Shown: positions 27,892 through 48,393, counted from the first letter of the stretch. The stretch: 64,000 nt of DNA from Coriobacteriia bacterium (GCA_016938135.1 JAFGVD010000003.1:1-64000), one strand, 5' to 3'. Numbers and translations are program-made. The notes: generated by a model not told the origin, from the letters alone.

Positions 27892-29748
27892 CTAGACGAC
27901 GTCGGCCAGACCGAGGCGCTCGACCGTTTCGGCGGTGGGAAGACCGGTCGTCAGATCCCAGCCCATTGCCGTATAGAAGCTGTCGAGCGAGACGTCTATG
28001 TTCGCAACCTGTCCTTCGCCACGTCCATCGGGAGCAGGCTCAGTGGTGAGGCGTACGGGTAGGGTGTCGTCAGCACGCGTGAAGCCGAACTTCGCGTTCG
28101 CGAGACGCTCAAGGTCGATGACCCTCTCGGCGGCTTTGAGCAAGCGCTCCTTGTCCCAATCCGCACCTGTGGCGGCCGAGAGGAGCGCCGCGTACGTCGA
28201 TGGCTGGATAGCCAGGGTGATCACCGAGAAGAGGCACGTACCCAGGAGGTTGGTGGTCATCGAGAACTCCATGAACGGCTTGACCCACCACTGGTTGTCG
28301 TCATCCAGGAAGTCGATGTCGCCCTCGATACCCAACTCGGAGTTGCGATACGCGAACGCATCGACAACCGACGCGTAGGGACGCAGATGGTCGGCACCGC
28401 GCGGTGAGACCGCATGGCTGATGCCCTCGCCTTTGCTTGCGCGGACTCCGCAAGACGCCAGCTCCACGCCTTTCACCGTCATCACGTAGTCTGCCGCGTC
28501 TCCGCCCAAGGCCTCAGCCGCACGCTTTGATCCCTTCGCGAGCAGGTCGCCGATGCCGTCGCGACGTGCGATCTTGTCCAGCAGCACGGGGAGAACAGCG
28601 CCGTTGCCCCAGGAGAGATCCAGGCCGTCGGCCTTCTCGGCGGGGAGGATGCCCTTCTCCTGCCATTCCATCGCGGTGGCGATGACCTGGCCGGACGCGA
28701 TCGTGTCCAGACCGAGGTCGTTGCACAGGTGACCCGCTTTTGCGATCGCGCGGATGTCGTCTACCAGGCATTTTGAGCCGAAGGCACCCATCGTCTCGTA
28801 CTCGGGGCCGCCGCCATGGCTGCCGGCGAACGGGCCGTCCTTCACGGTGGTCACACGCCCGCAGGCAACGGGGCAGCCGGAGCACGCGTAGGGCTTCACT
28901 TCGAGGATCTCGTGGTACGCGGCGTGGCCGACCTTGTCCATCGTCTCGTCCCAGGTCGTCCGTCGCCAGTTCTGCGTCGGCAGTAGGCCAAGGGCGCTGA
29001 TCGAGTCGTAGAAGCTGGGTGTGCCAAAGGGCTTCATCTCGTCTTTGACGAACTCCTCGGACAGCAGCTCTTCACGTGCCTTCTTCGCAACCTCTTTGAG
29101 CCTGTCCGGATCCGCCGTGGGCAGCGCTCTTGTCCCGCGCACGATGATCGCCTTGAGGTTCTTGGAGCCCATGGCGGCGCCGCCGCCTCCGCGACCGGCT
29201 GCACGTTCGCCGTCCGTCATGATGGCCGAGAACATCACGCCGTTCTCGCCTGCCGGACCGATGGACGCGATCTGGAACGCCTTGCTGTCCACTGTGGCCT
29301 TGAGCGCGGCCTCGGTATCGGTCACGCCAAGTCCCCAGAGTTCGGCGGCGTCTTTGATCTGGATGACGTCGTCGTCGATGTGCACGTAGACGGGTTTCTC
29401 GGCACGACCGGTGAACGCGATCATGTCATAGCCGGTCTTCTTGAGCGCGGGCGAGAGATGCCCGCCCACGTTCGCAAGTCCCAGGCCGCCGGATGCGGGG
29501 GAGCGGAAGACAATGCAGGTCCTGCCCGAGGTGGGCGCGGCGGTCCCGGTGAGGGGGCCGGTGGTGAAGATCAGGGGCTGAGAGGGATCGAGCGGTGGCT
29601 TGTCCGTGTCCGCAAGATCCATGAAGCTGCGGACTCCGATGCCTTCACCGCCCACGTAGTCCTCGAACCATTCGTTGGGCACATCATGAGTTTGGATAGT
29701 GCCGTCGGAGAGGTTCACGAGCAACGAACGATGCCAGTAACCATCCAT
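27892..29748 (-). CDS. Aldehyde ferredoxin oxidoreductase (tungstopterin)
   Basis: Protein of 618 residues. Start ATG 29748 with AAGGAG 8 nt before. The N-terminal domain shows YVGGEGIGVRSF, TGPLTGTAAPTSGR, and GERAAGRGGGGAAMGSKNLKAI, the pterin-binding signatures of AOR. A CSGCPVACGR segment supplies Cys ligands of the [4Fe-4S] cluster. It oxidises aldehydes to acids with ferredoxin, for example aldehydes formed from amino acid fermentation. No partner subunit is adjacent, so a soluble homodimeric AOR is likely. It stands alone with its own terminator. Confidence 0.92.
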   Translation of the reverse strand: MDGYWHRSLLVNLSDGTIQTHDVPNEWFEDYVGGEGIGVRSFMDLADTDKPPLDPSQPLIFTTGPLTGTAAPTSGRTCIVFRSPASGGLGLANVGGHLSPALKKTGYDMIAFTGRAEKPVYVHIDDDVIQIKDAAELWGLGVTDTEAALKATVDSKAFQIASIGPAGENGVMFSAIMTDGERAAGRGGGGAAMGSKNLKAIIVRGTRALPTADPDRLKEVAKKAREELLSEEFVKDEMKPFGTPSFYDSISALGLLPTQNWRRTTWDETMDKVGHAAYHEILEVKPYACSGCPVACGRVTTVKDGPFAGSHGGGPEYETMGAFGSKCLVDDIRAIAKAGHLCNDLGLDTIASGQVIATAMEWQEKGILPAEKADGLDLSWGNGAVLPVLLDKIARRDGIGDLLAKGSKRAAEALGGDAADYVMTVKGVELASCGVRASKGEGISHAVSPRGADHLRPYASVVDAFAYRNSELGIEGDIDFLDDDNQWWVKPFMEFSMTTNLLGTCLFSVITLAIQPSTYAALLSAATGADWDKERLLKAAERVIDLERLANAKFGFTRADDTLPVRLTTEPAPDGRGEGQVANIDVSLDSFYTAMGWDLTTGLPTAETVERLGLADVV

Positions 29749-30931: not shown

Positions 30932-31129
30932 TCTCTTCTCGGCAAATGCTCGCCGTATGAATGACCCAGCGTGAACGAGCCGTTCAGGCTTGGATAGATT
31001 CGCGCTGCGGCGCGTGCCTGCCTCCCTCCTCGGGTACCAACTGGATTACTCACGCTTCTAGGCTCGCAATCGCAGGAGGGGCGCGCCGTAGGCCGCGGTC
31101 AGCGGCGCATGGCACGTGGGGAGGCTCGT

Positions 31130-33394
31130 ATGCGAGGAAGAATCAGGCAGTTCGTTGCGCTGGTGGCTGTACTGGCGCTCATCGTTCCTGCAGCCGCCAT
31201 GGCTGCGGTGCCCAGAGATGTGGTGGACACACCGGGCTGGAAGGTGAAGAGCGACAAGCGCTCGCACCCGCTGGGGGACAAACAGGCCGACCTCAAGAAG
31301 CGAGCGGTTGCGGCCTTGCTCAGCGGCAAGGCGAGCGGTGGCGTCTACGAGGTTGAGGAAGGTGAGTTCGTAGAGCTTACGCGTGAGGGTGAAGGCGAAG
31401 TGTGGACCGTGCCCGGTGAGTTCGCCGACTATCTGCACAACTCCATTCCGGAGCCCGACCGCACCGTGGACAACTCTACGATCTGGGTCAGCGACTTCAG
31501 CCGGGACTACTATCTCGATCTGTTGTTCGCCGAGGGCGACGAGGCCAACTCGATGCGCGAGTTCTTCCTTGAGCAGTCCAGCGGTGCTTACACCGTGAAG
31601 GGCGATGTGACCGAGTGGGTCCCGGTTCCCGGCGACGCGGTGGAATACGATGACGGCGACCCGGGTCCCGGCACGGCCACCAACGTGTGGCAGTTCCTGG
31701 CGGACTCGCTCGACGGCTGGTATGACATGCAGATCGCGGCCGGGATGTCGGATGCGGAGATCGACGCATACCTGGCTGGATTCGACGTTTGGGACCGCTA
31801 TGACTTCGACGGTGACGGCAACTTCGATGAGCCCGATGGTTACATCGACCACTTCCAGAGCCTGCACTCCGGCGAGGGCAACGAGGCCGGCGGTGGCGAG
31901 CTGGGCGACGACTCCATCTGGAGCCACAGCTGGTATGCGTACTACACGTTGATTGGCCAGGAGGGGCCGATCGTCCCCAACCCTGACGACCCGACCGAAC
32001 CGCAGGAGAACTTCTACGGCGGTATCCAGATCGGGGACAGCGACTACTGGATCGGTGATTACACCATCCAGCCCGAGAACGGCGGCGTGGGCGTGTTCAC
32101 GCACGAGTTCACCCACGACCTGGGTCTTCCGGACCTCTACGACACCTCCGGCACCGGCGAGAACTCGACCGGTTTCTGGACGCTCATGTCATCGGGTTCG
32201 TGGCTCTCGGACAACGAGTACGATATCGGTTCCATGCCGAGTCATCTCGGTCCATGGGAGAAGCTGCAGTTGGGGTGGCTCAACTACGCGCAGACTGACT
32301 CCACAGCGCCTTCGGTACATACACTCGGTCCGGTGGAGTTCAACAACACCAAGGCGCAGGCGCTTGTGGTGAATCTGCCTGACAAGCTGGTTGAGGAGAA
32401 TATCGGAGAGCCGTACGCGGGCGAGTGGTTCTACTGGAGCGGGACCGGCGATGACCTGGACAACTACATGTACAAGGCCATGACGCTGCCCGCGGGTGCC
32501 ACCTTCACCGCGAAGGCGTTCTATCAGATAGAGCTTGACTGGGACTACGCGTATCTTGTGGTCTCCACAGACGATGGTGCCACCTGGGAGAGTGTGGAGA
32601 CGAACAAGTCCACCACCACCGACCCCAACGGTCAGAACTTCGGTTTCGGTATCACGGGTTCTACGAAGAAGTGGACCAGGCTCACTGCGGATCTCTCGGC
32701 GTACGCAGGAGACGTGCTGCTGGGCTTCAGGTACTGGACCGACGGTGCGATGACCGAGCCCGGCTTCATGGTGGACGACATCGCTATCACCGGTATGGCT
32801 GTGGATGGCGCTGAGAGCGAGGCAGACTGGACATTCGATGGCTTCAAGCGGACGACCGGCCACGAGTCTGGTCTGTATACCAACTACTACCTGGCCGAGT
32901 TCAGGCAGTACTGGGGCTATGACAAGACGTTGGCTAATGTCTACAATTTCGGGTTCTTGAAGGGCAAGGACGCGGCGGTCAACTGGGTGGAGCGCTTCCC
33001 GTATCAAGATGGGCTCCTTGTCTGGTACTGCGATGATTCGCAGGCCGACAACAATGTGGGCGTGCATCCCGGCAGCGGTTTCGCGCTACCCGTTGATGCG
33101 CACCCCGTGCCGCTGCTAAGGCCCGACAAGAAGGTGTGGCGCAACAGGGTGCAGACCTATGACGCGACGTTCGGTCTGGATCGCACCGAGTCGATCACGC
33201 TGCACTACAACAGCCGTGCGTCCTATATCCCGAAGCTTGCCGCGGTGCCGGTTTTCAATGACACGCTATCGTATTGGAGTGCGAGCAACCCCACCGGTAG
33301 TGTGATCACGCCGAATACGGGAACCCAGATAGAGGTTCTGGGTGTGAGCCGTGACAACATGTATATGGACGTCCGAGTGGCGCCGGTGAACTGA
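31130..33394 (+). CDS. Secreted M6-family metalloprotease (immune inhibitor A-like)
   Basis: Protein of 754 residues, start ATG 31130 with GGGGAGG 6 nt before. A Sec signal peptide ends near AMAA (residue 26). The zinc site is His325-Glu-Phe-Thr-His329-Asp in VFTHEFTHDLGLPDLYD, with the M6 extension DLYDTSG. The C-terminal half has a MAM/jelly-roll type domain as in InhA (AYLVVSTDDGATWE, DVLLGFRYWTDG). It degrades extracellular proteins or peptides, which would feed amino acid fermentation. A strong terminator follows. Confidence 0.9.
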   Translation: MRGRIRQFVALVAVLALIVPAAAMAAVPRDVVDTPGWKVKSDKRSHPLGDKQADLKKRAVAALLSGKASGGVYEVEEGEFVELTREGEGEVWTVPGEFADYLHNSIPEPDRTVDNSTIWVSDFSRDYYLDLLFAEGDEANSMREFFLEQSSGAYTVKGDVTEWVPVPGDAVEYDDGDPGPGTATNVWQFLADSLDGWYDMQIAAGMSDAEIDAYLAGFDVWDRYDFDGDGNFDEPDGYIDHFQSLHSGEGNEAGGGELGDDSIWSHSWYAYYTLIGQEGPIVPNPDDPTEPQENFYGGIQIGDSDYWIGDYTIQPENGGVGVFTHEFTHDLGLPDLYDTSGTGENSTGFWTLMSSGSWLSDNEYDIGSMPSHLGPWEKLQLGWLNYAQTDSTAPSVHTLGPVEFNNTKAQALVVNLPDKLVEENIGEPYAGEWFYWSGTGDDLDNYMYKAMTLPAGATFTAKAFYQIELDWDYAYLVVSTDDGATWESVETNKSTTTDPNGQNFGFGITGSTKKWTRLTADLSAYAGDVLLGFRYWTDGAMTEPGFMVDDIAITGMAVDGAESEADWTFDGFKRTTGHESGLYTNYYLAEFRQYWGYDKTLANVYNFGFLKGKDAAVNWVERFPYQDGLLVWYCDDSQADNNVGVHPGSGFALPVDAHPVPLLRPDKKVWRNRVQTYDATFGLDRTESITLHYNSRASYIPKLAAVPVFNDTLSYWSASNPTGSVITPNTGTQIEVLGVSRDNMYMDVRVAPVN

Positions 33395-34910: not shown

Positions 34911-35315
34911 ATGGACGAGGATCCCAAGGACGTCGCGGCAGACTCTGAAGAACCGAAGGTGTTCCGCATCGCGCAGATCGACACTCCTGGCAGCTCGAAG
35001 ATGGATCGGCGCAAGTTTGTCAAGGCGACCGTGGCAGGTGTCGGAGTGGCTGCGGCCGCCACGATGCTCTCGGGATGTGATCCAGAGCCCGATGACGAGC
35101 CGGCGGCGGAACCGATCGAACCGGTCGAACCGATGGAGCCCGTCGAAGAGGAGGCGCCGATCGCCGAGGAGCCCGAGGAGGAAGAACCCAGCGACGAGGA
35201 CAGCGACACCATCGGGATCATCTGCACGTGTGACACCGAAGGGTGCAGTTGTGTGGGGAACTGCACGTGCAACGCGGTCAGCACCCCGGGCAGCCACTAC
35301 TGGTACCCGAGCTGA
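34911..35315 (+). CDS. Precursor-like Tat lipoprotein with three CxC pairs
   Basis: Protein of 134 residues, start ATG 34911 after GGAGGAG. Residues 1-30 form an acidic leader. Residues 31-56 are an embedded Tat/lipoprotein signal: DRRKFVK, a hydrophobic stretch rich in Ala/Val, then lipobox MLSGC with Cys56. Residues 57-99 are a Pro/Glu linker. The tail 101-134 holds Cys105/107, Cys112/114 and Cys118/120 (three CxC pairs) and ends GSHYWYPS. It is the first gene of a seven-gene run with five radical SAM genes, as expected of a RiPP-type substrate. I infer that the tail is modified in the cytoplasm, then exported folded by Tat and lipidated. No known family recognised. Confidence 0.75.
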   Translation: MDEDPKDVAADSEEPKVFRIAQIDTPGSSKMDRRKFVKATVAGVGVAAAATMLSGCDPEPDDEPAAEPIEPVEPMEPVEEEAPIAEEPEEEEPSDEDSDTIGIICTCDTEGCSCVGNCTCNAVSTPGSHYWYPS

Positions 35316-35343
35316 GACCCGGGATGTGCACGCGGGGGGCGAG

Positions 35344-36666
35344 ATGAGCGTCTCATGGCGACCGCTCGGTGATACCACCTTCCTGATCACGCGACAGTCC
35401 CGTCTGCCATTGCTGTATGCGCCACTGCAGGATCTTGTCATGGAGGTGAACGACGCCTACGTGCGCTGTTTCCAGGCTGCGTTGGACGGAGATGCGGAGT
35501 CTGCTCGAGCCATCGGAGTCGAACCAGGGATGATGGAGGCGTTCGCGGTCGTCTCGCCCAAGGTGCGCAAGAAGTTCGACCCGTCGTGGCCGGAAGCGTT
35601 CGAGCCCACTTCGGTCACGCTCTTCCTGACCCACAAGTGCACGCTGCGCTGCGCGTACTGCTACTGCGAGGGCGGCTCCGGCCGCGATATCGACTGGCCG
35701 GTGCTTGAGGCATCGGTTCTGTTCGCCCTGGAGAATGCGGTCCGTCTCGGCCGCGAGCTCACTGTCGCATTTCACGGCGGGGACGTGGGCGCGGTCTGGC
35801 CGCTGTTCCAGCGGGCCATTGAGTTCATAGAGGCAGCCGCCGCCCAGGCGGGCGTGAAAGTGACGATGAACACCGGCACGAACGGCTTCTACTCCGCGTC
35901 TCAGGCGGCCTACATCGCGGAGCACATGCACAGCGCCACCGTCTCGATCGACGGGTTGCCCGAGGTGCACGATCGCTATCGCGTGACGCCCGGGTCGGGT
36001 CCCTCGCTGGAGACGGTCCTGCGATCGGTGCGTATCTTCGAGGAGAACGGGCTTGCGTACACCATCAGGATGACAGTGACTGCCGAGTCGCTGCCGCTAC
36101 TGGCCGAGAGTGTCGAGTACCTGTGCGAGCACACCAAAGCACAGGTCATCCGTGCTGAGCCGATGTACTCACGGGGCCGTGCGAGCGTCTCGGAGCTGGA
36201 GACACCCGAGCCCCATGCGTTCGTCGAGGCGTTTCGCGAGGCAGGTATCGTCGCGCAGACCCGTGGCCGCCTACTCACCTATTCCGGTGCGCGCCCCGGC
36301 GGTGTCGTGCCGGCATTCTGCACCTATCCCAGTCCCACCTTCGGTGTCACGCCCGATGGTGATCTTAGCTGCTGCTACGAGGTCCTTCGCCCCGATGACC
36401 CGCTCTCAGGGGAGTTCTTTTACGGCCATGTCGAGGCGGACGGCTCGGCGATCTGTGTCGACCGCTCTCGGATCGCTGCCATCCGCAACGTTGCCGCCCA
36501 GCGTCGTTCGGCGTGCGCCGAGTGCTTCTGCGTGTTCTCATGCGCCGGCGACTGTGCGGCCAAAGCGTTCGACAGTGGCAGGCTTGCAGGTGAGATGTCC
36601 TCGCGCTGCGAGATCACCCGGGCGCTCGTGCTCGACATGCTTGAAGCCGCGCTTGGGGGTGCGTGA
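35344..36666 (+). CDS. Radical SAM/SPASM maturase 1
   Basis: Protein of 440 residues, ATG 35344 (28 nt after the precursor stop, GGGGGGCGAG before). Residues 1-85 form an N-terminal region that could bind a leader. The radical SAM cluster motif is Cys99-x3-Cys103-x2-Cys106 (CTLRCAYC), followed by a GGD segment. The C-terminus has a SPASM-like set of Cys (AFC, SCCYE, CAECFCVFSCAGDC, RCEITRAL) for auxiliary [4Fe-4S] clusters, as in peptide-modifying enzymes (sactisynthase/PqqE/AnSME type). It probably acts on the precursor. The gene overlaps the next by one base. Confidence 0.85.
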   Translation: MSVSWRPLGDTTFLITRQSRLPLLYAPLQDLVMEVNDAYVRCFQAALDGDAESARAIGVEPGMMEAFAVVSPKVRKKFDPSWPEAFEPTSVTLFLTHKCTLRCAYCYCEGGSGRDIDWPVLEASVLFALENAVRLGRELTVAFHGGDVGAVWPLFQRAIEFIEAAAAQAGVKVTMNTGTNGFYSASQAAYIAEHMHSATVSIDGLPEVHDRYRVTPGSGPSLETVLRSVRIFEENGLAYTIRMTVTAESLPLLAESVEYLCEHTKAQVIRAEPMYSRGRASVSELETPEPHAFVEAFREAGIVAQTRGRLLTYSGARPGGVVPAFCTYPSPTFGVTPDGDLSCCYEVLRPDDPLSGEFFYGHVEADGSAICVDRSRIAAIRNVAAQRRSACAECFCVFSCAGDCAAKAFDSGRLAGEMSSRCEITRALVLDMLEAALGGA

Positions 36667-37745
36667 TGGATACAGTCGCGATGATGTTCCAGCCGGAGTG
36701 CCTCACCGTGTTTCTCAGTAACCGGTGCAACCTCGCTTGCAGCTACTGTCACTCGGTAGCATCGGCTAGACGGGAGCCGCCACTCTCGAGCGAGGTCGTG
36801 GCCGATGCGGCCCGAATCGTCGCCCGGTCGTGCGCCGAGCGCGGAGTGCCTATGACGCTGGTGTTGCACGGGGGTGGCGAGCCGCTGTTGGACCGGGAGG
36901 ACGCGGCGCGCGTGCTGGGCATCGTGTGCTTGCAGGCCGAGAGTGCCAGGGTGGCGCTTAGCACCTATGTCGCCACCAACGGGGTTCTGCCCGAGGCGAC
37001 CGTGCGATGGGCTGCCGCCGGGTTCGATCTCATTGGCTTATCGTGCGATGGCCCAGCTGACGTGCAAGACGTGCAGCGCCCGCGCCGCGACGGCGGATCC
37101 ACATCGACGATCGTCGAGCGTACGGCGGCGATCTTGCGAGAGGGCGGTGCGCACTTCCACGTACGCGCGACTATCACAGCGGCCACGCTCACCAGGCAAC
37201 GAGACGTGGTGGCGTATGCCATCGAGGTGCTGAAGCCGGCCGAAGTGCGCCTGGAACCCGTGTACGACAACCCGTCCCGGGTGCCGGGTCTCATGGCCGA
37301 GGACGCCTCTGCTTTCGTGGAAGGCTTCTTGGAGGCCCGGCGTTACGGTGCGGAGCTGGGGGTGCCGGTGACGACGTCGTTGCTGCGGCCCGAGGAGCCG
37401 CACGGCCCCTACTGTAATGTGCTGCGCCACGTGGTGAACCTGGCACCGGGCGACTTTGCGACGGGGTGCTTTGTGGAGTCGCGCGCTCAAGGCGCGCTCA
37501 GGCGCGGCGTGCACATCGGCTCCGTGGGCATCTCGGGTCGCTTCGAACTGGACGACGCGCGCATTGCGGCGCTGATCGCCGTTTGTGGTCGCGTGCCGGA
37601 GGAGTGCATGGGCTGCCCCATCGAGCACGCCTGTTCGCGCGGCTGCCCGGACGTGTGCATCGCCATGCAGGACGCCGTACGCCTGCACGATACGTTCCGC
37701 TGCCGCGCTCAGCGGCTGTTGGCGGGAGAGGTGGCGCTCGCATGA
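36666..37745 (+). CDS. Radical SAM/SPASM maturase 2
   Basis: Protein of 359 residues. ATG 36666 shares a base with the previous stop; a GTG at 36663 is possible. The cluster motif CNLACSYC has Cys21, Cys25 and Cys28, and LHGGGEPLLD supplies the SAM-binding Gly motif. A SPASM-like C-terminus includes YCNVL, GCFVES, CMGCPIEHACSRGCPDVC and a final FRCRAQRLL. It lacks an N-terminal leader-binding domain, so it may act after maturase 1. Its end overlaps the third radical SAM gene by 4 nt. Confidence 0.83.
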   Translation: MDTVAMMFQPECLTVFLSNRCNLACSYCHSVASARREPPLSSEVVADAARIVARSCAERGVPMTLVLHGGGEPLLDREDAARVLGIVCLQAESARVALSTYVATNGVLPEATVRWAAAGFDLIGLSCDGPADVQDVQRPRRDGGSTSTIVERTAAILREGGAHFHVRATITAATLTRQRDVVAYAIEVLKPAEVRLEPVYDNPSRVPGLMAEDASAFVEGFLEARRYGAELGVPVTTSLLRPEEPHGPYCNVLRHVVNLAPGDFATGCFVESRAQGALRRGVHIGSVGISGRFELDDARIAALIAVCGRVPEECMGCPIEHACSRGCPDVCIAMQDAVRLHDTFRCRAQRLLAGEVALA

Positions 37746-39133
37746 GCCACACGACTCCCCATATCGACCCCGAAGAGGTGTACGTGCTCCCGCTCGCGGA
37801 CCGCTGGCTCGTCTTCGCGCCCGGGACCTGGAGCGTTGCCGTCGTCAATCACCTTGCTCTCGGCGAGTTGGCGCAGTGCTGCGAGCCGGGACACGTGGCA
37901 CCGTCGCTGGACTCGCTGGAGCTGTGGCAGGCGCTCACGATTCCCACGACCGACTCGTCCCGGCACCGCCCGCCAGAAGGTGGCAAGCTCGTCATCATGC
38001 CCACCCGGGCGTGCAACATCAGCTGTGTCCATTGCGACTTCGGCTGTCCCGATGCTCCGCTCACCGTGCTTGATCCGCGGCTCGCCTATCCGCTGATCGA
38101 CCGGGTCCTCGCGCAGGCGGTCCGCAATGGCGAGCCGGTCATGCGTGTTCACTTCTTCGGCGGTGAACCGCTCGTGGCGAGGCGGTCGGTGGAGGCGATC
38201 GTCGCCTACACGCGCCGAGCGTGCGCGAAGGCGCACATCACACCGTGGTTCGAGCTCACCACGAACGGCGTGTGTGGCCCGGATGCGGTGGAGTTTCTTG
38301 GCAATGAGATCGATTCTGTGGTCGTGTCGCTGGATGGGGACGAGGGGCTTCACAACAGCCTACGCCGGCATCGCGACGGGCGCGGGACGTATACGGAGGT
38401 GGCCGAGACGCTCCGCCAGCTGGGGCGCTACCCGTGTGAGCTGTGCGTGCGGATGTGCGTTACCGATCTGTCGGTGGGCGCCTTGCCCGATCTGGCCGAG
38501 AAGTTCTGCTCAGAGTTCGACCTCAGCGTGCTCGCGTTCGAGACGCTGGCTGAGACACTCAGGTCCACCGCGGCGGGGCTGTACGCGCCGAGCCCGTATG
38601 ACTTCGCGCTGAACTTCATGGAGGCTGAGGCTGTCGGTGCCGAGCACGGCGTCCGCGTTGTGCACGGGCCGTCCGAGCTCGAGGGACCGCGCTCGACGTC
38701 GTGTCCGCTGGGCACCGGTTCGCTCATGCTGTGGCCGGACGGCGCCATCACCGGGTGCTATCTGGAGCCCGAGCGGTGGCGTGCGCGCGGTCTTGAGCTA
38801 TCGTTCGGACATGTGGACGAGGCGGGTGCGGTGTATGTCGACGAGCGGCAGATCGCGAAGATCGCGAAGAAGCTGGAGCGCAAGCCGCGATGCGAGCGCT
38901 GCTTCTGTCGCTACACATGCGCGGGCGGCTGTCGCGTGGAGCAGACCCCGCCGCGCTGCAGCCGGTTCTACGACGAGCGATGCCATGCTATCCGCCTTAT
39001 CACGGCGAGTCGGCTGCTACTGAGTGTGGGTGCAACTGCGGAAGCCGCTGCGCTACTGGTGAACGAGATGGCCGCTGCGGGGTTGGCGTCCAATGCCGAC
39101 GACCGGCTGCGCTCGTGGGCCAAGGTCGTGTGA
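37742..39133 (+). CDS. Radical SAM/SPASM maturase 3 with long N-terminal domain
   Basis: Protein of 463 residues from ATG 37742. The first 85 residues form a domain with YVLPLADRWLVFAPG, resembling the leader-recognition regions that precede peptide-modifying radical SAM enzymes. The cluster motif CNISCVHC has Cys91, Cys95 and Cys98; FFGGEPLVA follows. The C-terminal cysteines (SCPLG, GCYLEP, CERCFCRYTCAGGC, CSRF, CHAIRL) give a full SPASM. The substrate is presumably the same Cys-rich precursor. An additional tail of about 45 residues follows the SPASM region. Confidence 0.85.
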   Translation: MSHTTPHIDPEEVYVLPLADRWLVFAPGTWSVAVVNHLALGELAQCCEPGHVAPSLDSLELWQALTIPTTDSSRHRPPEGGKLVIMPTRACNISCVHCDFGCPDAPLTVLDPRLAYPLIDRVLAQAVRNGEPVMRVHFFGGEPLVARRSVEAIVAYTRRACAKAHITPWFELTTNGVCGPDAVEFLGNEIDSVVVSLDGDEGLHNSLRRHRDGRGTYTEVAETLRQLGRYPCELCVRMCVTDLSVGALPDLAEKFCSEFDLSVLAFETLAETLRSTAAGLYAPSPYDFALNFMEAEAVGAEHGVRVVHGPSELEGPRSTSCPLGTGSLMLWPDGAITGCYLEPERWRARGLELSFGHVDEAGAVYVDERQIAKIAKKLERKPRCERCFCRYTCAGGCRVEQTPPRCSRFYDERCHAIRLITASRLLLSVGATAEAAALLVNEMAAAGLASNADDRLRSWAKVV

Positions 39134-39134
39134 G

Positions 39135-40070
39135 ATGGCGAATCTGTCCATCACACGACGGTGTGAGCGCGATTGTGCTTTCTGTTTCGCGGCCGAGGAG
39201 CGCCGTCGCGAGCCGCTCGACATGTCGGCCGAGACCTTCGAACGCGCGATGGATCTCCTGGAGCGCTCGGGTATTCCCGATGCGCGGCTGCTGGGGGGAG
39301 AGCCTACGCTGCATCCGGACTTCGCGTCTCTTTCGGATCGCGCGCTGGAGCGGGGCTTTGCGCTCACGGTCATGACTGGCGGCCTCGTGCCCGATGACGT
39401 GCTCGCATATCTGGCGTCGCTGCCTACCGATCACATGACCGTCTTCCTCAACGCCGCGACACCGGGCGTAGACGGAGATTCACTTGTCGGCGCGCAGGAG
39501 CACGTGTGCAAGACGCTGGGGGAGTGCGTAGAGCTCGGCGTAACGATTGTCTCGGCGGACACGGATCAAAGCTTCCTGCTGGAGATCATCGAGCGCCACG
39601 GCCTGCGTCGTAGCGTGCGCATCGGCGTTGCGCACCCTATTGTTGGCGGTGCGAACGCGAGTGTGCCCACACGCGACTTGCGTGGGGTGGGTGTGAGCAT
39701 CGAGGCGTTCGTGACACAAGCGGAGGCGCACGGGGTGAGCGTGGGTTTCGACTGCGGCATCACGCCGTGCATGTTTTCCGAGGAGTTCGCTGCGGCGCAT
39801 CCCGATGTTATCGAGAGCGTGGGCACGCGCTGCGGGCCCATCGTGGACGTGCTCCCCGAAGGCGATGCGATTGCGTGCTACGCGCTTGCGTCGCTGGTGC
39901 GGCTGCCACTCGATGGATACGCGACACGCCGCGAGTTGATCGCCACATTCACTGAGGCGCTGGGCGACGGGCCGCCCTGGATCTTCGAGGAGTGCGCGGA
40001 GTGTACGCACCGAGCGGCCGGGCGCTGCACAGGCGGTTGCCGGGCACGTCGGATGAACGGGGGCGCGTGA
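39135..40070 (+). CDS. Radical SAM enzyme 4 (short, SPASM-like tail)
   Basis: Protein of 311 residues, ATG 39135, one base after the previous stop. The cluster motif is right at the start, Cys10, Cys14 and Cys17 in CERDCAFC, followed by LLGGEPTLHPDF (SAM binding). The C-terminus has CGPIVDV, ACYALASLV and CAECTHRAAGRCTGGC, a reduced SPASM. The short N-terminus distinguishes it from maturases 1 and 3. The next ATG shares the last base of its stop. Confidence 0.82.
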   Translation: MANLSITRRCERDCAFCFAAEERRREPLDMSAETFERAMDLLERSGIPDARLLGGEPTLHPDFASLSDRALERGFALTVMTGGLVPDDVLAYLASLPTDHMTVFLNAATPGVDGDSLVGAQEHVCKTLGECVELGVTIVSADTDQSFLLEIIERHGLRRSVRIGVAHPIVGGANASVPTRDLRGVGVSIEAFVTQAEAHGVSVGFDCGITPCMFSEEFAAAHPDVIESVGTRCGPIVDVLPEGDAIACYALASLVRLPLDGYATRRELIATFTEALGDGPPWIFEECAECTHRAAGRCTGGCRARRMNGGA

Positions 40071-40990
40071 TGCGCTGGGTGCTGCCCTATATCGACCAAC
40101 CTCCGGAGTTCTGGGCCCGTGTGGCCGACGTGGTCGCGCCGGACACGGCGAGCGTCTACTTCCCCATGCCTGCGAGCCCCATCGGCTCCGGGCGTCCGCC
40201 GCTACGTGCGGAGCACCTGCAGGCGTTTCTCGGCGTAGATGGCGTTGAGAAGTCGGTGTTGCTGAACCCGGTCGTGCACGAGGGTCCGGCTGCACGCGCG
40301 TTCGCGATGGTCAAGCCATACGTGCGCGAGCTCGTCGAGGAGTTCGGTGTGGCCGAGGCGGTTGTTGGGAGCCTGGGTCTCGCGCGGTTGTTGCGTGAGG
40401 CGTTCCCGGAGCTTCGGCGGGCGGCATCAACTCTGCTCGACGTCCGTACGCCCGCGCAGGTCGTCTACCTGGAAGGTGTGTTTGATTCGCTCACTCCGGG
40501 CGGTGGCGTCATGCGCGACCTGCCCGCGCTGCGCGAGCTGCGCGAGGCATGGCCGCGCGCACTGCGGCTGATGGTGAACGAGGGGTGTTTGCCCGGCTGC
40601 GTCTACCGCACGCAGCACTTCTTCGAGATGAACTCGGCAGACCCGATGCCGGCGTCGCTGTGCGCGGGACTGCTGGAGCGGGAGCCGTGGCTGGTGCTCA
40701 CCGGCGCGTGGGTGCTGCCCCAGCACCTCGATCTGTTCGAGGGTCTCTATGATGAGCTCAAGCTGGACGGACGCGTGACGCTCGCCGAGCCGGAGCACTA
40801 CCTGCGTGTTTTGTCCGCCTACGCGCATCGTACGCCGCTTGATCTGGCCGAGATAGGCGGTGGCCCTGCAACCGCACCGGGTGTGCCGCCTATCAGTCGC
40901 GAGTTCTATGCGCATACGCTGACCTGTGCGAAGACGTGTGCGAGTTGCGACGTGTGCCGCGAGTACCTCGCGAACGAGGGGCGGCCGTAG
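40070..40990 (+). CDS. Peptidase U32-like protein with six-Cys cluster motif
   Basis: Protein of 306 residues, ATG 40070. A TIM-barrel-like body carries LRLMVNEGCLPGCVYR (Cys173, Cys177) and a tail CAKTCASCDVC (Cys286, Cys290, Cys293, Cys296). U32 relatives such as UbiU/UbiV, RlhA and TrhP bind [4Fe-4S] clusters through Cys and carry out oxygen-independent hydroxylations, so a hydroxylase-like role on the peptide is one option; this is inference from weak family resemblance. It is coupled between radical SAM 4 and the HemW-like gene. It could instead be a structural partner. Confidence 0.62.
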   Translation: MRWVLPYIDQPPEFWARVADVVAPDTASVYFPMPASPIGSGRPPLRAEHLQAFLGVDGVEKSVLLNPVVHEGPAARAFAMVKPYVRELVEEFGVAEAVVGSLGLARLLREAFPELRRAASTLLDVRTPAQVVYLEGVFDSLTPGGGVMRDLPALRELREAWPRALRLMVNEGCLPGCVYRTQHFFEMNSADPMPASLCAGLLEREPWLVLTGAWVLPQHLDLFEGLYDELKLDGRVTLAEPEHYLRVLSAYAHRTPLDLAEIGGGPATAPGVPPISREFYAHTLTCAKTCASCDVCREYLANEGRP

Positions 40991-40992
40991 CC

Positions 40993-42282
40993 GTGGAGGA
41001 CTCGCGTCGCGCATGGGAGCGGGCACGCGAACGCTATCCGGCTGACGCGCATCTGCCGCTGCCGAGATGGGCGACCCGCGGGCTACCCGACGGACCCGCC
41101 ATCGCGTGGGAGGAAATCGCGCGCATCTCGGCGGAACGCTCCGGAGCGATTTCGGTGTATGTGCACATCCCGTTCTGCGAGACGCGCTGCCCGTTTTGCG
41201 ACTGCCACGCCACGATTGCGTCGCGCAGCGCACGTGAAGCTGTCGATCACTACGTCGAGACGCTGACCAGCGAGATCGCGGCTTTCGCAGCACTTCCCGG
41301 TCTTGCCGAGCGACCTGTCACCACCGTACACTTCGGCGGCGGCACGCCGCTCGCAGTCGGTGCCGAGATGTTCGAGCGCGTGGTGCGCATACTGCACGAC
41401 TCCCTGGCCACACACAAAGCGACGGAGTGGGCGCTTGAGTCAACGTCGCGACTCCTCGACGACGCCCACCTCGCACTGCTTGGCGGGCTCGGCTTTACGC
41501 GCATACACGTGGGCGTTCAGTCGATGCAGCCACAGCTGCGACAGATTCTCGGCCGCCGTGAGCAGCCGCACAAAGTGCTGGAGCGCATTGCCGCATGCCT
41601 GGAGCACGGATGGGTGGTCTCGGCGGACCTGCTCTACGGCCTACCAGGCCAAAGTGCCGCTATGCTGCGCGAGGACATCGCGCTGCTTGCCCGCGCCGGC
41701 ATTCACGGCGTCTCGCTCTACCACCTCAACGCCGGGCCGCACAACGTGCGCTTCATGAAGCAGCACGGGTTGGCGGAGCGTGACGAGACACGGCTGCGTG
41801 AGGATTTCACGGTGCTTGCTGAGGGGGCCGCGCTGCTCGAGAAGCTTGGTTTCCCGCGCAACCACGTTACGCACTTCGCGCGGCCGCAGGACACTAACCT
41901 GTACTCGCGACACGCGCTTCGAGGCGAGGATCTACTGGCGATTGGCTCGTCGGCCGACGGTGTGATGGGGCCGTACTTCTACCGGCATGTGGAGTTGGAC
42001 GGCTATGGCAACGGGTCCTCACTGCTCGCCGGGGGCGGCGTCTACACGCCTACCGAGGAGCGAGCCCGGCCATTGGTGACGCGCCTGATGGCTGCTGAGG
42101 TTATGCCTGACGGCCTCGACGACGTTGCACTCGCGTTCTGCGCGGAGCTTGAAGCGGCGGGGTTGTTGGAGCGCGCGAATGGCGGCGGCGCGTGGCGCCT
42201 CACGACAGCGGGTTCCTGGTTCTCGGGTGCGATGTGCGCCCAGACATGGGGTCTTTACGACGACGCTAGAACCAGCCGATAA
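40993..42282 (+). CDS. HemW/HemN-like radical SAM protein
   Basis: Protein of 429 residues from GTG 40993, 2 nt after the U32-like stop. The motif VYVHIPFCETRCPFCDC has Cys62, Cys66, Cys69 and Cys71, the CxxxCxxCxC form of coproporphyrinogen dehydrogenase-like proteins; HFGGGTP and GVQSMQ follow, with HemN_C-like winged region near the end (EVMPDGLDDVAL). HemW relatives bind haem or methylate substrates with two SAM molecules. Its place last in the precursor operon makes a role in maturation or cofactor delivery likely, rather than general haem synthesis. Confidence 0.82.
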   Translation: MEDSRRAWERARERYPADAHLPLPRWATRGLPDGPAIAWEEIARISAERSGAISVYVHIPFCETRCPFCDCHATIASRSAREAVDHYVETLTSEIAAFAALPGLAERPVTTVHFGGGTPLAVGAEMFERVVRILHDSLATHKATEWALESTSRLLDDAHLALLGGLGFTRIHVGVQSMQPQLRQILGRREQPHKVLERIAACLEHGWVVSADLLYGLPGQSAAMLREDIALLARAGIHGVSLYHLNAGPHNVRFMKQHGLAERDETRLREDFTVLAEGAALLEKLGFPRNHVTHFARPQDTNLYSRHALRGEDLLAIGSSADGVMGPYFYRHVELDGYGNGSSLLAGGGVYTPTEERARPLVTRLMAAEVMPDGLDDVALAFCAELEAAGLLERANGGGAWRLTTAGSWFSGAMCAQTWGLYDDARTSR

Positions 42283-44290: not shown

Positions 44291-44678
44291 TCGTCCCCCT
44301 GCTTTCTTCAGATGTAGTACCTGATGCTTGGATGAAGAATATCACGCACCTTCCGGGTACCGGCAGTGCGGTGACGCGATTGCCCTAAGGGCTTGGTGTG
44401 TGATTGCGACGTACTGCTTTGTGGGAAAACGGTGCGAACGACGTTACTCTTTCCGGCGGTAAACGTTTGCGGCTGTCTTATGCAAGCGTTCACAAACTAA
44501 GAATCACACAAGCAGTAACGCGAGAATCCCCTCGCCCCGATGGTATTGTACGCCAAAAATATGTCTGCGTGCAACCTCTTGCTACTAAATTGACCTTGAC
44601 TAGTAAGAACGACCCTGCTTTGCTGAAATCAGGCTAATGGCCCATAGGGGGCCGGAGGTAAGGGAAAGGGGAGTGAAC
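44291..44678. other. 388-nt promoter region with nested inverted repeats
   Basis: No gene seen. Between 44398 and 44520 several arms pair: GTGTGATT (44398-44405) with AATCACAC (44502-44509), ACTGCTT (44413-44419) with AAGCAGT (44510-44516), CGTTACT (44442-44448) with AGTAACG (44514-44520), and CGTTTGC with GCAAGCG in the centre (one mismatch). The region is AT-richer than its surroundings and feeds the cytochrome b-ferredoxin-AOR operon. It probably holds its promoter and regulator sites. Confidence 0.6.
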
Positions 44679-45467
44679 ATGCAAAGAGAGCTTCTGTTCG
44701 ACTCAGCCACATGGCTTGTGTGGCTGGCGCCGTTTATCGGTGTGCTTGCGGCAGGGCTCACCAAACGGCGTGATCCGGCAATCGAGGGTGATCGGGTGCT
44801 TCGGCACGACACGGCTGCCATCATCGAGCACTGGGCGCACGGTATCGGTACGGCGGTGCTGTTGGTGAGCGGCATCGCACTGGGAGTCTGGTTCTTGCCC
44901 GCGCTCGTCGGGAGCGGCGATCCGGTCTGGAACATGATGGACGTGCACTATGTGGCAGTGGTCGTGTTTCTGTTCGGCACCTTCTATTACGGTGCGAACA
45001 CGCTTCTGGCGATGAAGCGCTTCAGGGAGCACCTGCCCACCAAAGACGCTGTCGAATACACCAAGCGTCACTACGGACTGCTGCTGGGCTTCAAGAAGTT
45101 CACCATGCCTCCGGAGCGCAAGTACTTCGAGTCCGAGAAGATGGCCTACATCCTCGCGCTAGCATCAACAAGCGTCATCATCCTGACCGGGCTCATCAAG
45201 GTTGCGGCTCACGCGATCGATCTGCCCGCAGGACTCATGGCTGTTGTCACACCCGCGCACGACATCGCCACCGTGGCGATGCTGGCGTTCTTCCTCGCGC
45301 ACGTCTTCTTCGCGGCGATTCTGCCCATGAGCTGGCCGGTACTGCGCTCCATGTTCACCGGTTACGTGGATCTGGAGTACGCCAAGCATGAGCATGCCGG
45401 ATGGCTGAGAGAGCTTGGCTATGAGGCCGGCAAGGCCGAAGCGGCGTCGGAAGAGACTGCCGCCTAG
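44679..45467 (+). CDS. Membrane cytochrome b subunit (formate dehydrogenase gamma-like)
   Basis: Protein of 262 residues, ATG 44679 (AAGGGGAG before; an upstream ATG at 44637 has no site). Four to five membrane helices with conserved His in IIEHWAHGIG, MMDVHYVAVV, VAAHAIDL and LAFFLAHVFF that fit a dihaem cytochrome b. It likely takes electrons from the AOR and ferredoxin encoded next and passes them to menaquinone, or the reverse. It begins the operon: 31 nt to the ferredoxin gene. Confidence 0.8.
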   Translation: MQRELLFDSATWLVWLAPFIGVLAAGLTKRRDPAIEGDRVLRHDTAAIIEHWAHGIGTAVLLVSGIALGVWFLPALVGSGDPVWNMMDVHYVAVVVFLFGTFYYGANTLLAMKRFREHLPTKDAVEYTKRHYGLLLGFKKFTMPPERKYFESEKMAYILALASTSVIILTGLIKVAAHAIDLPAGLMAVVTPAHDIATVAMLAFFLAHVFFAAILPMSWPVLRSMFTGYVDLEYAKHEHAGWLRELGYEAGKAEAASEETAA

Positions 45468-45498
45468 GGGCGTGCACGAGAACCCGAAAGGAAACACG

Positions 45499-46260
45499 AT
45501 GGTTGATAAGGACATTAACTCCATAGAGGAGATAGTACCTGCCGAGGAGAAGAGCACGATTTCTCGCCGGCAATTCATCACCGGGATGGGTGGCATCGGC
45601 GTAGGTATCGTCCTGGGCGGAACGCTGTTCAAGGGCTTCCTGCTGCCGGACGAGGTCATAGCGATCCCGGCGTCCGGAGGCTACCTGTTGGTGGACTCCA
45701 AGAAGTGCCAGGGCTGCAACACGTGTATGATGGCGTGCTCGCTCACGCATCACGGCGTGGAGAACCTGTCGCTCTCGCGCATCCAGATCGTCCAGGATCC
45801 GTTCGCTTGCTTCCCTGACGACAAGATGATCACACAGTGCCGTCAGTGCGCGGACCCCAAGTGCGTCTCGGCATGTCCCACGGGCGCCATGCACGTGGAC
45901 AAGGAGACGGGTGTAAGGACCGTAGACACCGCCAAGTGCATCGGCTGCCAGGAGTGCGTGAACGCATGCGAACTCAACTTGAGCGGCGCGGGCTGGAATT
46001 TTGAAGAGAAGCACGCCCAGAAGTGCGATCTGTGCCTCGATACGCCGTTCATGGACGCGGACGGCGGCCCCGGCGGGCAGCAGGCGTGCGTGGCTGTATG
46101 TCCTACGGGTGCCATCAGTTTCACCACCGAGATCCCGGTGCAGACTGACGCCGGCTACGAGGTCAACCTGCGTGACGAGGGTTGGGCAGCTCTGGGATAT
46201 CCCATCGACGATGAAGGCAAGGTCAGCCCTGCTGCGGCCGCCGCGGCGTCCGGATACTAG
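45499..46260 (+). CDS. Tat-signal polyferredoxin (four-cluster electron transfer subunit)
   Basis: Protein of 253 residues, ATG 45499 (AAAGGAAA before). A Tat-type start ISRRQFITGMGGIGVGIVLGG (residues 21-41) precedes four Cys sets: CQGCNTCMMAC, CRQCADPKCVSACP, CIGCQECVNAC and CDLC with CVAVCP, as in the DmsB/HybA class. It should bind four [4Fe-4S] clusters and link the AOR to the cytochrome b. The Tat motif implies that the complex faces outward; the helix may stay as an anchor. Confidence 0.88.
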   Translation: MVDKDINSIEEIVPAEEKSTISRRQFITGMGGIGVGIVLGGTLFKGFLLPDEVIAIPASGGYLLVDSKKCQGCNTCMMACSLTHHGVENLSLSRIQIVQDPFACFPDDKMITQCRQCADPKCVSACPTGAMHVDKETGVRTVDTAKCIGCQECVNACELNLSGAGWNFEEKHAQKCDLCLDTPFMDADGGPGGQQACVAVCPTGAISFTTEIPVQTDAGYEVNLRDEGWAALGYPIDDEGKVSPAAAAAASGY

Positions 46261-46314: not shown

Positions 46315-48393
46315 ATGGCAACAGGTGGATACGTCGGTAAGATCCTAAGAGTGGATCTCACCGCTCGCGAGACCTCGGTCATCGAGACCGAGAAGTACAC
46401 AGAATGGGGAGGCGGTCACGGTATCGGCTCGGCCCTCTTCTGGGACTTGTGCAAGGACAAGACGGTGTCGGGCCGTGACCCCGGAAACATTCTCACGTTC
46501 ATGACGTCGCCCCTCTCGGGAACGATGGCTCCCTCGGCCTCGGGCCGTGTGGAGGTTCAGGGTATAGGCACTGCCGGATACCCCGTCAACTGGTTCACGC
46601 GCTCCAACTTCGGCGGTCGTTTTGGCGGCCAGCTCAAGTACGCCGGCTGGGACGGCATCGCGCTGGAGGGCAAGGCTGACGTTCCCGTATGGCTCGACAT
46701 CATCAATGGCAAGGTCGAGTTCCGCGATGCTGCCGACCTGTGGGGCAAAGACACCCAGGAGACGCAGAAGCTCATCTGGGAACTCAAGGAGAACGAGGAG
46801 CACGGCTGGACCGAGATAGGCAAGACACGTGACTCCGGCCGCACCACGCAGAAGCCGGCTATCATCACCATCGGTCCCGCCGGTGAGAACCAGTCCTCGC
46901 TGGGTTGTCTGGTGCACGATGCCGGTAACGCCGCGGGTCAGGGCGGCTTCGGTGCCGTCTTCGGTTCCAAGAACCTCAAGGCGATCAGCGTGGTGGGTAC
47001 GGGTTCCATTCCTGTAGCGGATCCCGCAGGCCTTCTGAATGCACGCATCTGGGCCAAGGAAGAGTATGCGGCTGCACCCGGCCAGCGAGTCGAGCCCAAC
47101 GGTCCCACCTTCGGTGTGGATCCGGCTCCGGTCTTCCTGTACGCGAAGAACCCTGATGGCCCCATGGGTCCGCAGGCTTGCCAGGGATGCATCAATGGCT
47201 GTCGCGCCCGGTTCGACACGGGAATCGCGAACGAGTCCAGCTGCCAGGAGACATCGATGTACAAGGCGTTCGACACCTTGGCACATGGTGAGGGTACCGA
47301 CGCATCTTACATAGCCACCGACCTGGTGCAGAAGATGGGCGTCAACTCCTACGAGCTGATGCAGGGCATCGGCTATCTCTATGCGCTCAGCAAGATGGGT
47401 GTTCTGGGCAAAGGGCTTGAGATCGACACGGACCTTGATATGTCGCGTGTGGGCGAGGCTGATTTTGCGATCGATCTGATCACCAAGATCTCCAACCGTG
47501 AGGACATCGGCGAGGACCTGGCCGACGGCTTCGTCCGTGCCGCCGAGAAGTGGGGCCGTCTGGAGCAGGACTACGCCATCGGCATCCTGGACTTCCCGTA
47601 CTGGGGCTATGCCAACCACGGCTATGACCCGCGCGCCGAGACCGAGTGGGGCTACAGCTCCATCATGGGCGACCGCGACATGAACGAGCATGGCTTCAAC
47701 GCCAACTTCTGGAGTGTCATCAAGCACATGATGGCCGGCCTGGAGATGCCTGTCTCGGCAGAGGAATACGCCAAGATCACCACCGCCAAGATGGTGCCCT
47801 ACGACGATGATCCGAACATGGTGGACTACAGCACTGAGAACATCTACTCGGAGTCGTTTGCCAAGCTGGTCGTGTGGCAGCGCCACTACACCCGCTTCTG
47901 GAAGCAGAGCGCGCTGTACTGCGACTTCCGGTATCCGGACTTCACCAACTACAACCGCGAGGACAATGTAGGCATCACTGGCGACGGCGAGCCGAAGTTC
48001 TGGAATGCCATCACCGGTCAGGACATCACCTTCCTTGACGGTATCGAGCTGGGTCGACGCATCTGGACGCTGGACAACGCGATATGGATCTTGCAGGGCA
48101 GGCACCGTGACATGGTGCAGTTCGCGTCCTACATCTACGACATCCCGCTGGAGAACAGCCTGGTTGGCCCGTACTACCCCATGGCGGGCAAGGTCGACGG
48201 ACAGTACGCCTACATCAACGTCCTCGGTCGGTCGATCGACCGCGATGGCTTCGAAGAGTGGAAGACGCACTTCTACAACCTTGAAGGTTGGGACCCGGCA
48301 TCCGGTTGGCCGACGCGCGAGACGCTTGAGAGCCTGAATCTGGCATTCGTGGCGGACGCTCTCACAGAAGCCGAGAAACTCGGAGGCGAGTAA
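46315..48393 (+). CDS. Aldehyde oxidoreductase catalytic subunit (tungstopterin, membrane-linked)
   Basis: Protein of 692 residues, ATG 46315 with CAGGAGG 8 nt before. It has the AOR pterin motifs (YTEWGGGHGIGSALFW, TSPLSGTMAPSASGRVE, NAAGQGGFGAVFGSKNLKAI) and the cluster Cys segment CQGCINGCRARFD. It is longer than the AOR at 27892 and belongs to the branch with an Fe-S and cytochrome partner. It has no signal peptide of its own although the ferredoxin does. The likely reaction is aldehyde oxidation or acid reduction with quinone-linked electrons; substrate unknown. Confidence 0.9.
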   Translation: MATGGYVGKILRVDLTARETSVIETEKYTEWGGGHGIGSALFWDLCKDKTVSGRDPGNILTFMTSPLSGTMAPSASGRVEVQGIGTAGYPVNWFTRSNFGGRFGGQLKYAGWDGIALEGKADVPVWLDIINGKVEFRDAADLWGKDTQETQKLIWELKENEEHGWTEIGKTRDSGRTTQKPAIITIGPAGENQSSLGCLVHDAGNAAGQGGFGAVFGSKNLKAISVVGTGSIPVADPAGLLNARIWAKEEYAAAPGQRVEPNGPTFGVDPAPVFLYAKNPDGPMGPQACQGCINGCRARFDTGIANESSCQETSMYKAFDTLAHGEGTDASYIATDLVQKMGVNSYELMQGIGYLYALSKMGVLGKGLEIDTDLDMSRVGEADFAIDLITKISNREDIGEDLADGFVRAAEKWGRLEQDYAIGILDFPYWGYANHGYDPRAETEWGYSSIMGDRDMNEHGFNANFWSVIKHMMAGLEMPVSAEEYAKITTAKMVPYDDDPNMVDYSTENIYSESFAKLVVWQRHYTRFWKQSALYCDFRYPDFTNYNREDNVGITGDGEPKFWNAITGQDITFLDGIELGRRIWTLDNAIWILQGRHRDMVQFASYIYDIPLENSLVGPYYPMAGKVDGQYAYINVLGRSIDRDGFEEWKTHFYNLEGWDPASGWPTRETLESLNLAFVADALTEAEKLGGE

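Follow-up and report, generated by a model that had tools for sequence, protein, structure and literature searches.

The window analysed here, a 64,000-nt stretch of the genome of a subsurface Coriobacteriia bacterium (2.13 Mb, 99% complete), contains a single tight operon of seven genes on the plus strand (34911-42282), all of which are present as open reading frames. From the first gene to the seventh, neighbouring genes are separated by a gap of 28 nt, overlap by 4 nt twice, are separated by 1 nt and finally overlap by 4 and 10 nt. The initial annotation of the locus had noted this close joining and had described the first product as a 134-residue protein with a Tat signal and a Cys-rich tail; both statements hold, the latter on the basis of an alignment of five orthologues. 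The following features were recognized:

34911..35315 (+): precursor, a 134-aa Tat-type lipoprotein with a CxC tail and a GHYWYP-type C-terminus (alignment of five orthologues, Tat model, tail pattern in the operon genomes)
34947..34976 (+): leader motif EEPKVFRIAQ, upstream of the twin-arginine signal, a proposed docking site (nearly invariant in the five orthologues)
35007..35078 (+): twin-arginine signal, RRKFVKA... to the lipobox LSGC (Cys56) (sequence, alignment, TatC in the genome)
35223..35270 (+): CxC core, aligning with 10-11 CxC units in orthologues
35295..35309 (+): C-terminal HYWYP, invariant in orthologues
35344..36666 (+): R1, radical SAM/SPASM protein (CTLRCAYC, full SPASM; PapB as best NCBIfam match, CteB as best solved structure)
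36663..37745 (+): R2, radical SAM/SPASM paralogue without an N-terminal domain, seen only in the Anaerosomatales family (profile scores, synteny, tree, motifs)
37742..39133 (+): R3, radical SAM/SPASM protein with a Chlorohelix orthologue at 33% identity (tree)
39135..40070 (+): R4, compact PqqE-like radical SAM protein with a partial SPASM region and a Chlorohelix orthologue at 34% identity (match scores)
40067..40990 (+): U32-like protein with a conserved GCLPGCVYRTQHF and a C-terminal CX3CX2CX2C (weak Pfam score, orthologues)
40981..42282 (+): R5, HutW/HemN-superfamily radical SAM protein (CETRCPFCDC), candidate class C methyltransferase (profile scores, solved relatives)

The precursor consists, in order, of the leader EEPKVFRIAQ, the RRKFVKA signal, the lipobox LSGC, an acidic linker, the core CTCDTEGCSCVGNCTC and the GSHYWYPS end, and all of these parts are retained in the four orthologous precursors. 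The hallmarks of a Tat-exported lipoprotein are in place: the signal is of the RRxFxK type, the lipobox follows and TatC is encoded in the genome (179 bits). The TIGR01409 Tat model gives the window precursor 16.3 bits versus a cut-off of 16.7, and the orthologues score at or over the cut-off; beyond the Tat signal, no NCBIfam or Pfam model was found for the precursor. Only three CxC units are present in the window tail. Across the five orthologues, conserved flanks enclose anywhere from 3 to 11 of these units, a variation in number that would be expected of an iteratively processed substrate. Most units take the form of the hexapeptide VC[TS]C[DE]x, and the Cys content reaches 24 per protein, with two of the five precursors retaining only seven. 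In the precursor orthologues, 73 of the 96 CxC units are directly followed by D/E; the CX3D/E motif targeted by PapB is absent from the core in the window. As regards the leader-dependent core modification that serves as a criterion for RiPPs, a conserved leader motif is present, and no leader-binding (RRE) domain could be demonstrated in the window. The product may not be aptly called a 'peptide', since the tail is probably never released from the protein that bears it.

The same order of seven genes is found in four other genomes of the Anaerosomatales family (G025, G007, G013 and G014), where the enzymes share 60-86% protein identity with those of the window. Purifying selection acts on each of the seven genes, dN being much smaller than dS (dN/dS of about 0.1-0.2 versus G025); for the precursor, the ratio relative to its G025 orthologue is about 0.13 over the whole protein and 0.07 over the tail. 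Given the synteny in four other genomes and the low dN relative to dS in every gene, the operon is real rather than a chance arrangement. It occurs patchily, in 5 of 27 family genomes, and is absent from the other species of its genus. Of the 69 genomes of the order, five have both the tail and the operon and the others have neither; these five are also exactly those that carry the U32 gene. A DNA pattern that encodes HYW[YH]P, a single further codon and then a stop, applied to 199 genomes of the class, recovered these five genomes plus one match without the stop. A search for R4 over 396 genomes of the phylum found it only in the window, a scan of genome contigs returned three Anaerosomatales/Coriobacteriia loci only, the viral contigs scanned yielded no relative, and the short tail, used as a tblastn query against plasmids, produced only a chance match. 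In G007, an additional radical SAM gene, weakly HxsC-like, lies between R1 and R2 (L015 9368-10630).

The initial annotation attributed CxxxCxxC motifs and SPASM-like ends to four of the six downstream proteins. CX3CX2C is in fact present in five of the six (R1-R4 and R5), and the SPASM assignment stands for R1, R2 and R3, which carry the complete set of Cys residues characteristic of SPASM peptide maturases, and in part for R4, whose SPASM region is preserved in its first half and degenerate in its second. The best match of R1, R2 and R3 is PapB, followed by SCIFF, QhpD, nif11 and related maturases, all far under the respective cut-offs; the PapB model (NF047865, cut-off 340 bits) gives 95.2 bits for R1, 63.1 for R2 and 93.6 for R3. 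The closest solved structure of R1 is 5WGG, that is, CteB (PMC7876137). R4 scores 37-44 bits versus cut-offs of 265-381 for PqqE/mycofactocin-type models; its translation most likely starts at 39135 (MANLSITRRC) rather than at 39093, judging from the conserved start of its orthologues. PADLOC matches to viperin were rejected as evidence of identity, as they reflect the radical SAM core common to both.

Some resemblance of the sixth product to U32 proteins, as initially proposed, is retained, but it is weak, with a PF01136 score of 19.9 bits, below the gathering score of 22.4. U32 oxidases, which hydroxylate without O2, carry the motif CX6CX15CX3C (PMC11574389), which is absent from the window protein, where Cys residues are at positions 174, 178, 199, 287, 291, 294 and 297. 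No sequence relatives of the U32 alignment were found among solved structures, and the AlphaFold models of R1 and the U32-like protein are of too low quality (mean pLDDT 46 and 57) to reveal a leader-binding domain in the former or a U32 fold in the latter. The last gene had been called HemW-like, which we correct to HutW-like: the best family for R5 is HutW/ChuW (TIGR04107, 191.8 bits versus a cut-off of 400), whereas the HemW model (TIGR00539) gives only 113 bits versus a cut-off of 205.4 and a true HemW is encoded elsewhere in the genome (212 bits). The solved relatives of R5 are HemN and the methyltransferase NocN. Overall, the operon enzymes miss the threshold of every named family tested, and since all of them fall far below equivalog cut-offs, the reaction types considered below are extrapolated.

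R1-type enzymes also accompany CxC sequences outside the operon. A search of the class with the precursor profile revealed, in a second Coriobacteriia family, Cys-rich peptides that share the VCTC units but have a different leader and lack a Tat signal or any other signal peptide. In all seven loci inspected in this family, an R1 homologue lies directly beside the peptide gene together with a TPR lipoprotein, and the six loci on longer contigs also encode a UbiU-like U32 protein (47 bits) and a radical SAM protein of the B12-binding type. These clusters (L053 5279-11259 and L055-L059) are related to the window operon but distinct from it. On a plasmid of Caballeronia sp. NK8 (NZ_AP024325.1; L084 4887-6868), an R1-type gene overlaps the gene for a Tat protein with CSCNKESGCACVGHERCVC, in which the CxC core lies mid-protein and is followed by a DUF1344-like C-terminal domain. 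A plasmid of Methylocystis iwaonis (NZ_CP143316.1; L097 2710-4300) carries an R1-type radical SAM gene and then an unannotated CxC-rich open reading frame (KCECDLDPPECSCECEDYVCQC...), which is probably another precursor of the same kind. Plasmids of Edwardsiella tarda (L096 2794-4330) and Salmonella (L086 5028-6264) encode a radical SAM protein and a peptide of 57-59 aa with a CCRGG end and a Gly-rich stretch with a terminal W, adjoining an ABC transporter and an S8 protease; this is a different, bacteriocin-like cluster.

The plasmid search with the R1 homologue of the second Coriobacteriia family further led to Candidatus Chlorohelix allophototropha, a member of the Chloroflexota, in which one gene run on a plasmid encodes R3, a PqqD-like protein (PF05402 as best match, E 0.025, below cut-off), R4, two Tat precursors and R1. 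Both precursors carry the leader in the same place as in the window (EEKPQVFAVSKK) and terminate in CTCNC...THYWYPN and CTCDAQCTC...YHYWHPN, respectively. With about 400 residues each, they are far from small: the tail is fused to a WD40 propeller in one and to another domain in the other, and the latter, the middle domain of the second precursor, has a tail-less paralogue with a Sec-like signal encoded about 5 kb upstream. The HYWYP tail is thus a module, fused to differing exported proteins in Chlorohelix, and the initial idea of one small substrate applies to the window but not to these larger proteins. In the phylogenetic tree, the R3 proteins of Chlorohelix and the window group with 100/100 support and the R1 proteins with 91/91, the latter on long branches. 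R4 of the window matches that of Chlorohelix at 163 bits, and the plasmid record ranking next reaches 75. The annotation of the Chlorohelix run includes no U32 gene, and HYWYPN is present. The association of a Tat lipoprotein bearing a Cys-rich tail with a radical SAM set, as first surmised, is a conserved one, within the family and across phyla; a precursor that is absent or unconserved beside homologous radical SAM sets, named at the outset as the observation that would speak against the proposal, was looked for and not encountered.

From the synteny, the purifying selection, the co-occurrence of tail and operon, and the conservation of tail and leader in two phyla, we infer, with a probability of roughly 0.6, that the operon specifically serves to mature the C-terminal tail of a lipoprotein exported by Tat, with R1 acting on the CxC units and R3/R4 on HYWYP. 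This division of labour is suggested by gene content, since R1-type enzymes accompany CxC sequences with or without HYWYP, whereas R3 together with R4 accompanies HYWYP: R1-type loci lacking R3/R4 have no HYWYP, and those with both enzymes do. The pattern draws on two HYWYP lineages and on the R1 tree join of 91/91 with its long branches, and the assignment is accordingly a prediction. The small number of CxC units in the window tail, three, and its lack of the CX3D/E motif also weigh against the proposal. In the proposed pathway, the leader motif EEPKVFRIAQ would hold the precursor in the cytoplasm, where R1, perhaps with R2, would cross-link the CxC cysteines, most likely through thioethers to nearby residues, given the kinship of R1 to PapB, CteB and QhpD (PMC9413430, PMC7876137). 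R3 and the PqqE-like R4 would act on the aromatic HYWYP end, and R2 may provide an additional step in Anaerosomatales. The U32-like protein, a possible O2-independent hydroxylase, and R5, a possible class C methyltransferase, might contribute tailoring steps peculiar to the Anaerosomatales family. The Tat pathway carries folded proteins, and the finished protein would be exported by this route and then lipid-anchored, possibly to act outside the cytoplasm as a redox centre, a metal centre or a surface device. With modification preceding Tat export and lipid anchoring, neither an ABC exporter nor a leader protease would be needed, and their absence, already remarked upon in the initial annotation, extends from the operon to its four syntenic copies.

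Since the tail and three of the enzymes recur in an unrelated phylum, the system appears to represent a mode of chemical decoration of exported proteins that has not been described before. That it does not belong to a described RiPP class, as initially suspected, agrees with the lack of precursor models beyond the Tat signal and with the openly licensed literature, where we found no description of it and nothing relevant on HYWYP, on U32 proteins with RiPPs or on Tat with radical SAM RiPPs. The known cases of radical SAM maturation mainly concern free peptides, along with a small number of cofactor precursors. In the present case, the conserved leader, the Tat signal and the CxC/HYWYP tail are features of complete exported proteins from two phyla, and a single substrate would be served by as many as six enzymes of the radical SAM or U32 type. 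If the tail is indeed modified, it would represent an added class of post-translational modification for exported proteins, in which several radical reactions converge on one short sequence, and the EE.K/P-V-F leader and the HYW[YH]P end would provide sequence handles for genome mining.

Several known systems resemble the operon in part. Like the ranthipeptides PapA/PapB and SCIFF/CteB, it combines SPASM maturases (best matches of R1, R2 and R3) with a Cys-rich core preceded by a leader. PapB-type cores, however, carry CX3D/E cross-link motifs (PMC9413430), which the window tail lacks, the similarity of 63-95 bits is remote from the 340-bit cut-off, and the window has several maturases per precursor and a Tat lipoprotein as substrate. 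In the QhpC/QhpD system, through which the gamma subunit of quinohemoprotein amine dehydrogenase matures, a SPASM enzyme acts in the cytoplasm, as proposed here, on a whole protein and not on a free peptide before export takes place, with an aromatic residue near the cross-links; the window operon nevertheless includes no dehydrogenase subunits, subtilisin-like protease or flavoprotein, and QhpD is only distantly related in the tree. The parallel with PQQ and mycofactocin biosynthesis (PqqE, MftC) lies in the compact PqqE-like R4 and the PqqD-like protein beside its Chlorohelix orthologue, but the scores are far lower than the cut-offs and the putative substrate is a lipoprotein tail. For R5, the likeness is to HutW/ChuW and to class C methyltransferases, with NocN being one of two solved relatives, although 192 bits fall short of the 400-bit cut-off and no heme-uptake genes were seen in the operon. 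Finally, bufferins, which are MNIO-modified exported RiPPs, derive, as the window product may, from a metal-binding modified precursor with a signal peptide (PMC12452194); the window differs in enzyme class, in its Tat lipoprotein signal and in the HYWYP end.

The last comparison raises the possibility that the CxC tail is mainly an extracytoplasmic metal-binding or buffering device, metallothionein- or bufferin-like, tuned by radical SAM modification. The regular hexapeptide spacing of the CxC units, with up to 24 Cys per protein, and the existence of copper-chelating bufferins with a signal peptide (PMC12452194) fit this explanation, but the persistence of HYWYP and the enzyme set in the two precursors with only seven Cys would be odd for a bulk metal sink, and neither a transporter nor a sensor for metals was observed within the conserved block, so that we regard it as unlikely, though not negligible. 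It is decidedly unlikely, in our estimate, that the mature tail is an anaerobic protein-derived redox cofactor, in which thioethers would stiffen the chain and the Trp/Tyr of HYWYP would be cross-linked and hydroxylated to a quinone-like group, with the U32-like protein replacing the O2-using hydroxylase of cysteine tryptophylquinone biogenesis. There is a precedent in QhpD, which forms Cys-Asp/Glu thioethers in QhpC while a partner flavoprotein dihydroxylates a QhpC Trp, all in the cytoplasm (PMC7876137); moreover, R1 and R3 score with the QhpD model, U32 oxidases can hydroxylate without O2 (PMC11574389), a UbiU-like homologue is encoded in the second Coriobacteriia cluster and HYWYP is invariant. 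Against it, the window U32 protein lacks CX6CX15CX3C and stays under the Pfam cut-off, the Chlorohelix run has HYWYPN despite its lack of an annotated U32 gene, and no dehydrogenase subunit is linked to the operon, the neighbouring PQQ-type GSDH being a core gene (22 of 27 family genomes). A fuller version, in which radical SAM enzymes cross-link both CxC and the HYWYP aromatics, a U32-type enzyme hydroxylates with a non-O2 donor, and the tail is exported through Tat as a plug-in module that anaerobes attach to lipoproteins and to propeller proteins, would constitute an O2-independent route to a quinone-type cofactor and is best regarded as a long shot.

The relationship of the SPASM maturases to the ranthipeptide enzyme PapB, the Cys-rich core and the patchy occurrence in 5 of 27 family genomes, including absence from a congener, could also be explained if an antimicrobial ranthipeptide-like peptide were cleaved from the lipoprotein and secreted. 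This appears very improbable, as the five syntenic operons lack an ABC exporter, a protease and an immunity gene, the Tat signal and lipobox would keep the product attached, and in Chlorohelix the tail forms part of proteins some 400 residues long. The mere proximity of genes is weak evidence, and the precursor might be an unrelated small lipoprotein located by chance ahead of radical SAM genes with small-molecule substrates; yet the same tail and leader stand beside orthologous enzymes in another phylum, and tail and operon coincide in the same 5 of 69 order genomes, which renders coincidence scarcely credible. Maturation of the exported tail by the operon enzymes is therefore the reading we prefer.

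The surroundings of the operon are less constant. The PQQ-type GSDH lipoprotein encoded next to the operon was considered as a functional partner and discarded, as its gene is found in 22 of 27 family genomes with or without the operon. The flanking genes for a racemase, MutL and an aminomutase were discarded as well, as they represent a genomic context common to several relatives, not including G025. A secreted M6 (immune inhibitor A-like) metallopeptidase is encoded just upstream (31109-33394, plus strand) and was not found next to the operon in any of the four syntenic genomes. The region is flanked by two aldehyde ferredoxin oxidoreductase genes (27895-29748, minus strand, and 46315-48393, plus strand), the second of which is preceded by genes for cytochrome b561 and a Tat-type ferredoxin (44637-46260).
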